Positions 34,695-42,275 of a DNA stretch of 64,000 bases are shown here, one piece after another (the first letter of the stretch is position 1; the number at the start of each line of letters is the position of its first letter). Under the pieces are notes generated by a model, which saw only the letters and a program-made list of their open reading frames with translations, was not told where the DNA came from and did not search any database. A program made the translations under genes and the position numbers. This stretch comes from Cyanobacteriota bacterium (GTDB lineage Bacteria > Cyanobacteriota > Cyanobacteriia > CACIAM-69d), in the NCBI GenBank assembly GCA_022402445.1, contig JAKRSF010000004.1, forward strand, positions 63,858 to 127,857, written 5' to 3'.

Positions 34695-36635
34695 CTAGCG
34701 CAGGAAATTCATATTGGGCTGCACCTTGGCCCGCACCAGGATCGCTGAGATATTGTCGTGGCCGTTGTACTGGTTACTCAACTCGATCAGTTGCGAGAGC
34801 CCTTGATCGAGGTTGGCGCGGGAACTGAGCAGGGGCGCGAGGTGGGTTTGCCAGTGGGTTTCGATTAGGTCATTGTCGCTCATGCCGTCCGAGCAGAGCA
34901 GCAGCAGCGTATCCTCGTCGAAGTCGAGCACCTGAATGTCCGGATCAATGAAATCGCTGTCCCGAGGGCCAAGGGCCTGGGTGAGTTGATAGGCATCCGG
35001 GCGGCTGTAGGCGGCGCTCGGATCAACGCCCCGCTGGATCTCCCGCTGGCCCACTTCGTGATCGACGGTGATCTGTTCGAGGCCCCGGCGGCGGCTCAGG
35101 CGATAGAGGCGGCTATCCCCCACATGGGCGATCGCAACCTTGGAATTATGCACCAGGGCCAAGACCAGCGTGGTCCCCATGCGGCCACTGCCTGATCGCA
35201 AATCCCGCTGGTTCGTTTCAAAAATGACCCGATTGGCCTCTAGGATGCCCTGGCGAATGGCATCGGCGGACGGTAGGCGATCCTCAGTCCAATGCTCATC
35301 AAAATACGTCTGTAGGGTTTTGACCGCTAGGCTGCTGGCCACCTCGCCACTGGCATGGCCCCCCATCCCGTCACAGAGGATGTAGAGACTGCGGGCGCAG
35401 ATGCTCTTGCCCATGGGCGTCTCGCGCCGCTGAACATTGGTATAGATGCCAAAGCAGTCTTCGTTGTGGTCCCGCTGGCGGCCGATATCGCTGCGGCCCG
35501 CTTCGTCGAGGCTGGCGAGCTGCATGGGCAACACGACGGTGGGGGCGTCATCGACGTTCGTGTCCTCCTCATCGTCATCGTCGAGGTCGGACGAGTCCAT
35601 GGCCCCGAGGCTGTCGATCGCATCCCGCAGGGACATGGCCCCCTGGGGTTCCGCCCTAGGGGATCCAAAGGCCATGGAGGATCCGGCCCCCACAATGCGC
35701 AGGGGCTGCCCGTTCGAGATGGCCTCCAGGTGGGTGCGCACTTCGCCCACCACCAACAGTTCACAGGCGGCAAGGCTCTCCGCTAGGGTGCGCAGGGGCT
35801 CTAGATCGTCGCGATCGCAGCGGCCCAGCATCTCCACCCAGGTCTGCCCCAAATCCCGCAGCAGGGCCGAATGCTCCAGACTCGGGGAATAGTGCAAATA
35901 GGCCAGACAGGGCACCCGATCCTCATCCACCTTCAGATTGTCCAGATCCAGCAGACTCGATGCGCAGCTCAGGGGCAGCAGACTCTCCCACAGATCCAGC
36001 AGCAGTTCCAGACCATAGACAATTTCCGGCAGGGGCGTTTCCGGGTCGCCCCACAGGTCCACCAACCCCGGCCAGCCCGTCCGATCCTCCAGGATCGTCA
36101 CCTGCTGATGGGTATCCTCCCAGGCATCCACCAGCACGGGCAAATGTTGCTCAAATTCCGCCTCAAGGGCCAAATAGGGACGAGCCACCGCTGGCACCAC
36201 GGTCTCCAGGGACGCCTCTAGGGCCGCTTCCCCCTCAGGATCCTCTGTCGCCGCCCGGGCCAGGTTCGCCTCCGCCTGGGCCACCGCCGCATCCAAACTT
36301 CGCACCCGATAGGGGTCGCGATCGCACACCCGCAGCCGCGCCGCCGTCGGCACCACCGTACTCATCTCCAGATCCGACAAAGCCCCATAGCGCCAGTAGG
36401 GCGTCCCCGCCGCCGCCACATCCGGGGCAGGCCAGCCATAGGCCTTGCGCGGCGAATCCACAATCGCCAGCAGCGGCTCCGCCAATGCCACCCCACAACT
36501 CGGACAAGCTAAGGATCCCACCGGCACCTCCGCCGAGCAGTCCGGGCAAGTCTCGTGGGTCAGGGACGTCCCGCACCGCTGACAAAACTTATGCCCATCG
36601 GGATTTTCAAATTGGCACTGGGGACAAATCAGCAT
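34695..36635 (-). CDS. Zinc-ribbon PP2C serine/threonine phosphatase
   Basis: 646 residues from the ATG at 36635 (MLICPQCQFENPDGHKFCQRCG). The N-terminus has paired zinc-ribbon CxxC motifs (CPQC, CQRC, CPDC, CPSC). A long middle region of about 330 residues resembles nothing I can name. An acidic Asp-rich stretch precedes a C-terminal PP2C domain with HNEDCFG, CDGMGGHASGE, GTTLVLAL, VGDSRLYRL, CSDGMSDN and GHDNIS, so the metal-binding Asp residues are intact. It should dephosphorylate Ser/Thr proteins. It is followed upstream by the VKOR gene, same strand, 111 bases away. Confidence 0.9.
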   Translation of the reverse strand: MLICPQCQFENPDGHKFCQRCGTSLTHETCPDCSAEVPVGSLACPSCGVALAEPLLAIVDSPRKAYGWPAPDVAAAGTPYWRYGALSDLEMSTVVPTAARLRVCDRDPYRVRSLDAAVAQAEANLARAATEDPEGEAALEASLETVVPAVARPYLALEAEFEQHLPVLVDAWEDTHQQVTILEDRTGWPGLVDLWGDPETPLPEIVYGLELLLDLWESLLPLSCASSLLDLDNLKVDEDRVPCLAYLHYSPSLEHSALLRDLGQTWVEMLGRCDRDDLEPLRTLAESLAACELLVVGEVRTHLEAISNGQPLRIVGAGSSMAFGSPRAEPQGAMSLRDAIDSLGAMDSSDLDDDDEEDTNVDDAPTVVLPMQLASLDEAGRSDIGRQRDHNEDCFGIYTNVQRRETPMGKSICARSLYILCDGMGGHASGEVASSLAVKTLQTYFDEHWTEDRLPSADAIRQGILEANRVIFETNQRDLRSGSGRMGTTLVLALVHNSKVAIAHVGDSRLYRLSRRRGLEQITVDHEVGQREIQRGVDPSAAYSRPDAYQLTQALGPRDSDFIDPDIQVLDFDEDTLLLLCSDGMSDNDLIETHWQTHLAPLLSSRANLDQGLSQLIELSNQYNGHDNISAILVRAKVQPNMNFLR

Positions 36636-36746
36636 AAATCGGCTTCCTCGGCTCTCCTCAGATCGTAATGTCGCCGCATGGGCCAGCGGGTAGCGGTGCC
36701 AGATGGAAAGCGGATCCCCAACGGTCACCGAGGCGGTTTGCCCGAC

Positions 36747-37827: not shown

Positions 37828-38688
37828 CTACGGGGTATGGGAAACCGGCGCGGAAGGCCGCAGGGTCGCAGGCAACTCCGCCACCCGCGATCGCCCCGAT
37901 CTCGCCGCATCCACCAACTGCCGCACCCGATTCGGATCAATAGGATTTTCCCGCCGACCGCGCCGCTTCAGGGAACTCGCCACAATCACCCCATCCGCCA
38001 CCGCCAGCAGACCGGCCACATTATTACAATCCGCCCCGCTGCCCACCAGCACCGGCGTCTCCCCAGCGGCCGACTTCGCCAACTCCAAATCCTCCACATT
38101 CGGCGGCGATCCCGTGGCCCAGCCGGACAAAATCACCGCATCCGCCAGCCCCCGCTCGATCGTATCCTGGACCGCCACCGTCAAATTGGGCGTCCCAATG
38201 GGTCGGGCATGTTTCACCAGCACATCCGCCAGGATCTTCACATCCGCCCCCAGCTCCCGGCGATAGCGCAGCAGTTGATGGGCCTGCCCCTCAATCAACC
38301 CCTGATCCGTCGCCATCACCCCACTGAGCACATTGACCCGAATAAACGACGCCCCCGTACAGGCCGCGATCGCCAGGGCACTGCGGGCATCATTGCGCAG
38401 CACATTAATCCCCAACGGCAACGCCACCAACGTCTGCAAATGCTGCACCACCGTCGTCATGGCGCTAATCACCGCCGGATCCGCCGCCTCCTTCGGGAAG
38501 GGCGCATCAAAAAAATTCTCGATCAGGATCGCATCAGCCCCCCCAGCCGCCAGGGCAACGGCCTCCTGTTCTGCGCGATCAATGACCGCCTTCAAACTTC
38601 CCCCCCAACGGGGAGCCGTAGGCAGGGGCAAGAGATGGACGACGCCAATAATCGGCTGAGCGTTGTTGAAAGTTCGAATTAAATCCAC
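37828..38688 (-). CDS. btpA: Photosystem I biogenesis protein BtpA
   Basis: 286 residues, TIM-barrel-like. Sequence features of the BtpA family: IIGVVHLLPLPTAPRWGG, GGADAILIENFFDAPF, GINVLRNDARSALAIA, FIRVNVLSGVMATDQG, ILADVLVKHARP and VLVGSGADCNNVAGLL. BtpA of Synechocystis stabilises the photosystem I reaction-centre proteins PsaA/PsaB at the thylakoid surface. Non-photosynthetic members also exist, so the role is inferred from the cyanobacterial context. Confidence 0.92.
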   Translation of the reverse strand: MDLIRTFNNAQPIIGVVHLLPLPTAPRWGGSLKAVIDRAEQEAVALAAGGADAILIENFFDAPFPKEAADPAVISAMTTVVQHLQTLVALPLGINVLRNDARSALAIAACTGASFIRVNVLSGVMATDQGLIEGQAHQLLRYRRELGADVKILADVLVKHARPIGTPNLTVAVQDTIERGLADAVILSGWATGSPPNVEDLELAKSAAGETPVLVGSGADCNNVAGLLAVADGVIVASSLKRRGRRENPIDPNRVRQLVDAARSGRSRVAELPATLRPSAPVSHTP

Positions 38689-39049
38689 GCAGACCTAACT
38701 CAGGAAGTGACGGAACTCGATATACGCGCAGCACCCATTGTATCGAGATTTAGATCGACCTATCCCATCAACCTTCCCCATCCGATCACTTCCCCTGTCG
38801 CCACATCCCTGACCGGGTAAGGTCGCCCCGGCGATGGCTACCCCGCCCCACCCCCCAAAGCCCCCCAGGGCCAGGGCGATCGCTTGTCCAATCCACCCCC
38901 TAATCAGCCCCTTCCCCTAATGAATTGCCCTAACAGTCGGTTAGGTCACAATACGGACAGCCTGTGTTAGAGAACTTTCAATAATCCCAAAGGGGCGATA
39001 GGATATATACACGACGACCGGTGTACTGCAGCTAAGGGAGACAACCCAA
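38689..39049. other. Divergent promoter region, btpA / NB-ARC gene
   Basis: About 360 bases, no gene. The 100 bases before the NB-ARC gene are AT-rich, with a TATATA tract near 39,004 and a short dyad at 38,929-38,945 listed separately. Confidence 0.45.
38929..38945. promoter_or_regulatory. Inverted repeat upstream of the NB-ARC gene
   Basis: CCTAAC-N5-GTTAGG, a perfect 6-bp dyad about 105 bases before the start codon. Its size suits a dimeric regulator's operator, possibly autoregulatory because the gene product has an HTH. This is inference from shape only. Confidence 0.3.
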
Positions 39050-40678
39050 TTGATACCTGAGGATTTCTTAATCTTTATTGCCAAAGAGCACAGTGTTTCT
39101 AATACCGAACTTGAGGTGCTCTCCGCTGCCCTGAAAGGGGAGCCGATGAATGGAATTTCTAAGCGCCTAGGCATTCGCCCAGAGGCGGCCAGAAAGCGGC
39201 TCGGTGAGGTGTACAAAAAGTTTCACATCGGCGGGGCTGGTCCCGGTAAGCTGGCGAAACTCCAGCAGATCCTGGTGTCCCAGTACCAAACCCACCAGGC
39301 CCAGGCCAGCACGGCGACGCCGACGGTGATGGAGGTGGACGAGACCCTGCCGCCGTTTGACTGGGGTGAAGCGCCGGATGCGACGGTGTTCTTTGGCCGC
39401 ACCCGGGAGCTGGCGGAACTGAAGGGATGGGCGGTGGATGATAATTGCCGCCTGATTTCGATCCAGGGCATTGGCGGGGTGGGTAAAACGGCCCTGGCGG
39501 TGAAGGCGGCCCAGGAACTGGAGGCGTCGGAGCATTTCGAGTTTGTGGTGTGGCGATCGCTGCGCCACAGCATTTCGGTGCGGGAACTGACGGGGCGTCT
39601 GACCCAGTTCATCCTGCGATCGCGGCGGGGCTACATGCCTGAGAGTACCCACGATCGCATCTCATCCCTCATCGAGTGCCTGCGTCAGCACCGCTGCCTG
39701 CTGGTGTTTGATCGGGTGGAGTCCATCCTGCGGGAAGGGGACGTGGCGGGCCAATACCGGGACGGCTTCGAGGACTATGGCGAACTGTTCCGGCGCTTGG
39801 GCGAAGAAAATCACCAAAGTTGCGTCATTCTCACCAGTTCCGAGAAGCCGCGTGAAATTGCGCTGCTTGAGGGCAATGCCCTGCCGGTGCGGGGGATGCA
39901 GTTGGGGGCGCTGTCGGTGGACGAAGCCTGCGAACTGTTCCGGGCCAAGGGACTCCAGGAGGAAAAATCCTGGGGGGATTTGGTGGAGGTCTATCGGGGC
40001 AATCCGCTGGCCCTGAAGATTGCGGCGACGACGATTCAGGAACTGTTTGGCGGCAAGGTGTCGGAGTTCCTCAAGCAGTCCACGCTGGTGTTTGGTGAAA
40101 TCAAGGAGCTGGTGCAGCGCCAGTTTGATCGCCTTTCGGAACTGGAGAAGAGCATTCTCTACTGGTTGGCGATTGAGCAGCAGCCGATTTCCCTGGAGCA
40201 GTTGCGTGAGGACATTTTCGTGCCCTGTCCGCAGCCGGAGTTGCTGGAGGCGTTGGCGTCCCTGGGGCGGCGATCGCTCATCGAGCGCAGTGCTAGCAGT
40301 GCCCTGTTTACGCTGCAACCGGTGGTGATGGAGTTTGTGTCCCAGGAGTTTGTGGAGCGCATGGGGGCTGAACTCCATGACCTGACGCGATCGCAGAAGG
40401 TGGAGCGCCTAGATGTGTTCCGCAGCCACGCCCTGGTGGCCCCGTCCCAGAGCCGCAAGCGGGGTAAGGCCACGCCGGCGAGCCTGAAGCTGATGGAAGC
40501 GGTCAAAAACAGCGTCCGCAAGACGGTGCGCAACGAAAAGCAGATCGAAACCCAGTTTGAAAAGGTGCTTGAGGTGCTTGAGGCGAAGTTCCCCCTAGAG
40601 GTGGGCTACGCGACCCAGAATGTGAGGCATCTGCTGGAAAGCCTCCAGGCTGATATGAGTGACTATGGTAAGGGCTAG
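39050..40678 (+). CDS. HTH plus NB-ARC STAND ATPase lacking WD40 repeats
   Basis: 542 residues, TTG start with AAGGGAG nine bases upstream. Residues 1-75 form an HTH of the kind found at the N-terminus of many cyanobacterial STAND proteins (VSNTELEVLSAALKGEPMNGI). NB-ARC follows: FFGRTRELAEL, P-loop GIGGVGKT at 140-147, LLVFDRVES (Walker B-like), GNPLALKIAA, then a winged-helix region. Relatives continue after a GYxxxNxxxLL...LSGYDFS junction into WD40 or pentapeptide sensor repeats. Here GYATQNVRHLLESLQADMSDY is followed by KG and a stop. So the sensor is missing, encoded elsewhere, or lost. STAND proteins act in signalling, cell death or phage defence. Confidence 0.9.
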   Translation: MIPEDFLIFIAKEHSVSNTELEVLSAALKGEPMNGISKRLGIRPEAARKRLGEVYKKFHIGGAGPGKLAKLQQILVSQYQTHQAQASTATPTVMEVDETLPPFDWGEAPDATVFFGRTRELAELKGWAVDDNCRLISIQGIGGVGKTALAVKAAQELEASEHFEFVVWRSLRHSISVRELTGRLTQFILRSRRGYMPESTHDRISSLIECLRQHRCLLVFDRVESILREGDVAGQYRDGFEDYGELFRRLGEENHQSCVILTSSEKPREIALLEGNALPVRGMQLGALSVDEACELFRAKGLQEEKSWGDLVEVYRGNPLALKIAATTIQELFGGKVSEFLKQSTLVFGEIKELVQRQFDRLSELEKSILYWLAIEQQPISLEQLREDIFVPCPQPELLEALASLGRRSLIERSASSALFTLQPVVMEFVSQEFVERMGAELHDLTRSQKVERLDVFRSHALVAPSQSRKRGKATPASLKLMEAVKNSVRKTVRNEKQIETQFEKVLEVLEAKFPLEVGYATQNVRHLLESLQADMSDYGKG

Positions 40679-41248: not shown

Positions 41249-41342
41249 GGGGCGTTTGGATCGAGGGGGTGGGTATAACGGTTCAGGGGGTATTGGTTAA
41301 GCTAGCGTTTTTTGGACGGTGAGGGGAAAGGGGAGGGGCTGG

Positions 41343-42275
41343 ATGGAGGGGTTGCTGACGCGGTGGGTGTATCTGTGGCAGGAAACGTGGCGCGGCCTCC
41401 AGCGGGGGGGCTGGATGAATTGGGCGGCGGTGGGGACGGTGGCGGTGTCGTTGTTTTTGTTTGGGTTGAGTTTGCAGGCGTCGTGGCAGGTGGAGCGGCT
41501 GCTGGAGCAGTTTGGCAGTCAGCTTGAGATTTCGGTGTATCTGACGCCGGGGACGGATGCGATCGCGCTGGCGCAGCAGTTGAAAACCTGGCCGGAGGCG
41601 ACGGCGGTGGAGGTGATTCCGCGCGATCGCGCCTGGGCGAATTTGGTGCAGGAGTTAGGAATTTCTGACATTGAGCAGGCGACGCAGCAGTTGGCGGGTA
41701 ATCCGCTGCTGGATGAGTTGAAGGTGCGATCGCGCAGTTCTGAGGTGACGGCGACCTTGGCGGCCCGCATCGAGGCGATCAAGGGGGTGGAGGCGGCCCA
41801 GTATGTGGCGGAGGCGGTGCAACGGCTGCGGGAGGTGGATCGGGCGTTGCAGACCATTGGCCTGGGGGTGGTGGGGCTGCTGGTGTCCGCCGCGATCGCG
41901 ACGATCGTGACGACGATCCGGCTGGTGGTGGCGGCGCGGCAGCGGGAGATTGAGATTATGCGGCTGGTGGGGGCCACCCGGGATTGGATCTATTTGCCCT
42001 TTGTCCTGCAAGGGTTGCTGTTCGGCCTCCAGGGCAGCGCCCTCGCCTGGGGCAGTTTGTTGGCCCTGCAACAGACCCTGCGATCGCTGGTGGCGCGGCA
42101 GGCAACCCTTTTGCAATGGCTGGTGGGGGATTTGGCGGTGCGGCCCGTCGATGCCCTGATCCTGGGGGGAATTTTGGTGGGCTTTGGGTGCGCCGTTGGT
42201 CTGGCGGGCAGCTTTTTGGCGGTGCTGCGGACGGCCCAGCCCACGGATGAAACGCCCCAAACCCTAACGTCCTAA
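41343..42275 (+). CDS. ftsX: Cell division ABC permease FtsX
   Basis: 310 residues from the ATG at 41343 (an ATG at 41319 is possible). One N-terminal helix, a periplasmic domain of about 130 residues beginning QLEISVYLTPG, then three helices, with the family segment EIEIMRLVGATRDWIYLPF before the second. FtsX with the ATPase FtsE transmits division signals to peptidoglycan hydrolases. No ftsE is adjacent, so its partner must be elsewhere. Confidence 0.93.
   Translation: MEGLLTRWVYLWQETWRGLQRGGWMNWAAVGTVAVSLFLFGLSLQASWQVERLLEQFGSQLEISVYLTPGTDAIALAQQLKTWPEATAVEVIPRDRAWANLVQELGISDIEQATQQLAGNPLLDELKVRSRSSEVTATLAARIEAIKGVEAAQYVAEAVQRLREVDRALQTIGLGVVGLLVSAAIATIVTTIRLVVAARQREIEIMRLVGATRDWIYLPFVLQGLLFGLQGSALAWGSLLALQQTLRSLVARQATLLQWLVGDLAVRPVDALILGGILVGFGCAVGLAGSFLAVLRTAQPTDETPQTLTS

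Follow-up and report, generated by a model that had tools for sequence, protein, structure and literature searches.

In the stretch of cyanobacterial DNA analysed here (64,000 nucleotides, hereafter the window), the gene at 39050-40678 on the forward strand is probably, at a rough probability of 0.58, complete and inherited vertically, encoding a STAND-type switch without repeats that is built from a LuxR/sigma-region-4-like HTH, an intact NB-ARC ATPase with its winged-helix part, and a helical domain capped by a GYxxxN motif. The most likely role of its product is that of a repeat-less STAND-type regulator. As judged from comparison with its relatives, the gene is intact, its end point is conserved, its ATPase motifs are invariant and the selection acting on it is purifying, and the repeat-less HTH-NB-ARC protein is a stable cyanobacterial architecture, not annotation debris. 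The gene and its parts are as follows.

39050-40678, + strand: gene for an HTH-NB-ARC protein of 542 aa that lacks C-terminal repeats, starting with TTG and ending with TAG
39034-39040, + strand: possible ribosome-binding site AAGGGAG, just 5' of the TTG start, found by eye
39050-39304, + strand: N-terminal HTH module, residues 1-85, GerE / sigma region 4-like, up to the GxGPGKLAKLQ segment
39410-40306, + strand: NB-ARC ATPase core and winged-helix part, residues ~121-419 (Pfam match at 121-328, AlphaFold2 model, fold matches across 98-485)
39467-39493, + strand: Walker A, residues 140-148, GIGGVGKTA, from the alignment of 28 short forms
39695-39724, + strand: Walker B region, residues 216-225, CLLVFDRVES, from the same alignment
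40307-40675, + strand: C-terminal all-helical domain, residues 420-542, from AlphaFold2 models
40604-40621, + strand: GYxxxN motif, residues 519-524, GYATQN, from the alignment of 28 short forms

The Pfam NB-ARC match to residues 121-328 scores 55 bits against a cut-off of 23.5, and the residues of the ATPase motifs are kept almost without exception in the 28 aligned short forms. Each of the Walker A residues G140, G143, G145, K146 and T147 is found in 28/28, as is D221 of Walker B, with E224 present in 26/28; Walker A and Walker B are both intact, as in NB-ARC (AP-ATPase) NTPases. The GYxxxN motif near the C-terminus is kept to a similar degree (N524 in 28/28, Y520 in 27/28 and G519 in 26/28).

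Matches to the window protein were found in 43 of 59 related genomes. The five genomes of the same family, from two other genera, all have a full-length best match (535-554 residues, 57-66% identity to the window protein) whose open reading frame ends at the same point, a coincidence that lies beyond chance because it holds in 5/5. The called frame starts with TTG in the window gene and in all five orthologues (6/6), at a position eight codons further upstream in the two g2 genomes. An apparent internal TAG in the G001 orthologue was rejected, being that gene's own stop, since the alignment ran two codons beyond its end. Within genera, dN/dS (Nei-Gojobori) is 0.028 (G004/G002), 0.033 (G001/G003) and 0.077 (G004/G005), and for the C-terminal part of the same pairs it is 0.10, 0.09 and 0.17, respectively, so that this part is also constrained, even if it evolves faster than the remainder (0.09-0.28 across the pairs tested). 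Ratios between genera, 0.14-0.23 overall, are only rough, as synonymous sites are saturated (pS > 0.6), and for this reason only the within-genus ratios are used as evidence. Purifying selection, which the preliminary description of this locus had proposed to look for, is evident from these within-genus values of 0.03-0.08.

The protein ends in ...LEVGYATQNVRHLLESLQADMSDYGKG directly before the stop or, over a longer stretch, in GYATQNVRHLLESLQADMSDYGKG and the stop. An abrupt end after DMSDY had been described previously, and the 542-residue reading frame bears this out, although three residues (GKG), and not two, lie between DMSDY and the stop. The reported likeness of this tail to the junction of repeat-bearing proteins is real, given that the fused relative L108 reads GYATGNILNLFWQLGIDVSDYDFSQL ahead of its WD40 repeats. 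Such a likeness is what would be expected if the gene had arisen from a fused WD40 receptor by truncation or decay, and losses of this kind do occur, as seen from four truly broken loci (L153, L154, L155 and L158) and from a short protein, L017, that lies within the fused group in the tree. For the window gene, this origin is nevertheless highly improbable, considering that the stop is common to 5/5 same-family orthologues and to short forms of many genera, that the tail is conserved under purifying selection, and that the region 3' of the gene holds no WD40 remnant. The preliminary description had entertained a truncated gene and had named close relatives in the fused form, with this stop as a recent mutation, as what would refute its observation; the five orthologues instead end where the window gene does, and on all these grounds recent truncation was ruled out.

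The lack of remnants was seen in two ways. In three-frame translations of 900 nt 3' of the gene, for the window and the five orthologues, no repeat-like sequence was seen, in agreement with the earlier description, and a tblastn search with the C-terminal 600 residues of eight fused relatives (E 1e-3, 3/3 positive controls matched) found no WD40 in the whole 64-kb window. The window protein has no WD40 within its own chain, which sets it outside the WD40-bearing NB-ARC receptors.

The distribution of the short form was followed by scanning the genome collection with two HTH peptides, which yielded 85 relatives, the best 80 of which were retained; this choice selects for the same HTH. Classified by ORF structure, 50 of these 80 loci are short, 8 are of fused length (1177-1385 aa) and 10 encode proteins of 640-691 aa, and the other 12 comprise 3 running off a contig end, 4 with several stops and 5 of other kinds. 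The statement that relatives usually continue into WD40 repeats fits the wider NB-ARC set, but of the loci chosen here for this exact HTH the majority, 50/80, are short. The short group includes members from Limnothrix, Oscillatoria, Planktothricoides, Laspinema, Spirulina, Hydrococcus, Hormoscilla, Microcoleus, Kamptonema, Lyngbya, Microseira and Tychonema, among other genera. Their stop lies 7-27 residues past the motif N, with a median of 10, in the 49 of 50 loci where the pattern matched, the exception being L091, which reads GFGAFN. Pfam detects 14 WD40 stretches in the fused-length L108 and, in L147 and L163 from the 640-691-aa group, TPRs after the HTH-NB-ARC core; four other loci (L136, L137, L142 and L145) encode proteins of 641-677 aa, similar in length to these TPR-bearing ones. 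The several in-frame stops of the broken loci (4/80) point to real decay elsewhere in this family.

A separate set of 338 genomes from the class gave at least 34 matches covering the whole profile (from position <=5 to >=530), with at least 10 short, at least 22 of fused length and at least 2 of other length, these being lower bounds counted by eye with up to four candidates scored per genome. The short ones belong to four families, with at least 6 in the window's family, at least 2 in f34, and at least 1 each in f26 and f13. One genome of this set, G316, encodes a short and a fused-length protein (G316:C79:4704-6335 and G316:C110:58410-59972; frames of 553 and 1246 aa), both of which match the short-form profile from the HTH through to its end. 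Close relatives with and without WD40, once within a single genome, provide a natural comparison for what the repeats add to a STAND switch.

In a tree of 73 sequences, from which 25 named loci (near-copies and off-target matches) and 4 broken, too-short loci were omitted, all 25 fused-length proteins fall on one side of a branch together with the short L017, which has a different N-terminus; the support of this branch, 80/82, is not strong. The clade of the window protein and L089-L092 (100/100) lies outside the fused group, and in this tree, with its insecure root, the window lineage is not a twig inside that group. A single clade of the 36 same-HTH short proteins is not rejected (p-AU 0.261). 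With this value, and with an uncertain root that was set on a pair of 465-aa NB-ARC proteins, either the fused or the short form may be the older, and the short protein may descend from an ancient loss of the repeats followed by stable existence.

Structure prediction places the end of the protein within a domain of its own. The AlphaFold2 model built from the 28-row alignment has a mean pLDDT of 83.8 and a pTM of 0.54, the latter leaving the arrangement of the domains unsure. The model contains an HTH within residues 4-57, a long helix at 67-87, the NB-ARC core with its winged-helix part, and C-terminal helices at 424-448, 476-492, 496-512 and 521-541, and the C-terminal part folded alone gives the same helices (pLDDT 77). 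As GYxxxN is kept where nothing follows it, what had been taken for a junction is, according to these models, the last element of a conserved C-terminal helical domain and not merely a linker. For this domain alone, structural searches returned nothing convincing (best Foldseek E 0.58, best Z 4.6), a result that is not evidence of a new fold. The closest fold matches of the core (Foldseek and VIA-align) are STAND proteins, namely PH0952 at Z 16.6, plant resistosomes, CED-4, and chain 8bob_C of a maltose-system structure, which we take to be MalT.

Since the same core carries WD40 or TPR in relatives, the repeats look like optional sensor add-ons, and the core looks able to work without them. 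A more far-reaching version of this idea, which we offer tentatively, is that the helical domain ending in GYxxxN forms a minimal sensor or partner-binding unit, that the short form is the older one, and that the WD40 array was joined just past the motif. The two forms would then be a bacterial equivalent of CED-4 and Apaf-1 and could share a genome, as in G316.

The preliminary description had coupled the idea of a minimal STAND ATPase, which is supported by the evidence above, with that of a separate sensor, as in split defence systems, for which no support was found. A split receptor, in which the ATPase would be joined in trans by sensor repeats made from a separate gene, would be in keeping with the several WD40 ORFs and the very many pentapeptide ORFs of the window genome, and also with CED-4, a repeat-less relative by fold that is restrained by another protein. 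Six ORFs of this genome have WD40 matches. From a reading of their sequences, three are large or kinase-like proteins with N-terminal parts of their own and a fourth, L088, is J-domain-like; the other two, L085 (638 aa) and L086 (476 aa), are seemingly free-standing. These two do not follow the NB-ARC gene, which is present in 5/5 relatives, against matches in 1/5 for L085 (E 1e-30) and in 0/5 for L086 (E 1e-20, in a search without positive control), and none of the WD40 ORFs of the genome carries the junction sequence in its first 60 residues. Pentapeptide-repeat matches number 138 in the window genome (E <= 0.01), spread over many contigs and often in ORFs of 180-540 aa.

The surroundings of the short genes do not supply a candidate sensor either. 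Clustering of the neighbours of 51 short loci (518 kb of flanks, with L113, cut by a contig end, counted in), 8 complete fused-length loci, L149, L151 and the window returned lineage-specific neighbours only, the commonest family occurring at 17/51 short loci. WD40 genes flank just two of the 51: at L092 (identical in place to L035), a WD40 protein of 744 aa that, from a reading of its sequence, has a hydrophobic stretch close to the N-terminus and is possibly membrane-anchored, and at L104, a kinase-like protein with WD40. A split STAND receptor would have a WD40 protein adjoining or co-occurring with the ATPase; with WD40 genes at 2/51 short loci and the free-standing candidates in 1/5 and 0/5 relatives, a sensor acting in trans is unlikely.

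The order of the genes around the HTH-NB-ARC gene is largely kept among relatives, as seen for two neighbours.

37828-38688, - strand: BtpA-family gene, divergent neighbour, in the same position in 4/4 relatives with enough flank
41319-42275, + strand: FtsX-like gene, downstream, with the order kept in 3/4 relatives (L032, L033 and L034, not L035)

These counts refer to L032-L035, L036 being left out as a 5-kb contig. The BtpA and HTH-NB-ARC genes diverge across a gap of 361 bp (38689-39049), the divergent order is retained in the 4/4 relatives with enough flank, and a regulatory link between the two is possible. On the other side, in 3/4 relatives, the orthologues are followed by a small convergent ORF without Pfam match and then by FtsX-like and AhpC/TSA genes. 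The gene at 34695-36728, adjoining VKOR and BtpA genes, encodes a protein that combines a double zinc ribbon with a PP2C phosphatase domain. A search for an operator in the five-genome alignment of the upstream region returned no clear shared block (26/612 columns invariant), and a promoter scan gave no hit.

The HTH bears on the possible output of the switch. In the window protein, the GerE-like match at residues 15-58 is weak (E 0.0026, 17.8 bits, below the Pfam cut-off of 23.5), and across the 28 members GerE is matched in 27 and Sigma70_r4_2 in 14 at E 0.1. Control of transcription is preferred as the output on two grounds, the likeness of the HTH to LuxR/GerE and sigma region 4 in most members and the fact that MalT and AfsR, both HTH-bearing STAND proteins, are regulators. 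According to the proposed mechanism, bound ADP would hold the protein closed until a partner or ligand binds, for which the C-terminal helical domain is the likeliest site; this binding would permit exchange for ATP and oligomerisation. The oligomer would gather several HTH modules, which could then act at promoters, as in MalT and AfsR, or dock another protein. Docking is the main alternative because the same HTH occurs on proteins without detected NB-ARC, among them the TPR-only L164, L166, which has a weak TIR_2 match (E 0.0083, under the cut-off), and the unassigned L167 and L168; the HTH could thus be a docking module in place of the predicted DNA-binding module.

Carried further, docking leads to an anti-phage or cell-death NLR-like effector, not a gene regulator, in which the HTH docks other conflict proteins. 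The HTH-bearing proteins without NB-ARC, L166 with its TIR_2 match in particular, and the resemblance of the NB-ARC core to resistosomes agree with such a role, and AP-ATPase-linked conflict systems of multicellular bacteria are outlined in PMC7159879. Several observations make it doubtful nonetheless. The HTH profile occurs only once in the window genome, and therefore no second protein with a matching module is available as a partner; the gene keeps a stable chromosomal position amid housekeeping-type genes within the family; and PADLOC gives weak and partial matches only, none of its models covering most of the window protein (IetA over 30 residues, E 0.0014; PtuA over 45 residues, E 0.0054).

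Among known systems, several combine similar parts in different ways. In MalT the HTH is C-terminal and the sensor TPR-like, and AfsR has TPRs. Both share with the window protein the combination of HTH and STAND ATPase; the fold match to 8bob_C, taken as MalT, reaches Z 14.0 (rmsd 3.1, 222 residues), and the sequence match to AfsR has an E of 6.7e-5. CED-4 of Caenorhabditis has a CARD where the window protein has its HTH, is held by a separate protein, and matches by fold at Z 15.2-15.3 over 304-308 residues, with an rmsd of 7.9-8.6. The likeness is that CED-4, too, is an NB-ARC protein without repeats whose relative, Apaf-1, bears WD40, and an apoptosis-like function is without support here.

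Closer to the window protein stand the other cyanobacterial architectures. A survey of NACHT and NB-ARC proteins is available (PMC4773052). According to PMC11119718, sigma70 homologues have NB-ARC and WD40 among their commonest accessory domains, and cyanobacteria have NB-ARC linked to sigma region-4 domains, one such protein being SigR (r4_2*NB-ARC*TPR_MalT). In titles and the opening parts of abstracts of the open-access literature, no description of a short HTH-NB-ARC subfamily was found. The HTH-NB-ARC-TPR proteins L147 and L163, comparable to SigR by the architecture outlined there, have HTH and NB-ARC in the same order as the window protein but, unlike it, continue into TPR repeats. The HTH-NB-ARC-WD40 proteins (L108, L109, L130 and L135) share with it the HTH, the NB-ARC core and the helical GYxxxN domain, L108 being 47% identical to the window protein over residues 1-539, and they run on through a DFS...QAYL stretch into a long C-terminus, with WD40 demonstrated in L108, where the window protein stops. 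Set beside these relatives, the window protein belongs to the NB-ARC family as an unremarkable but stable member.
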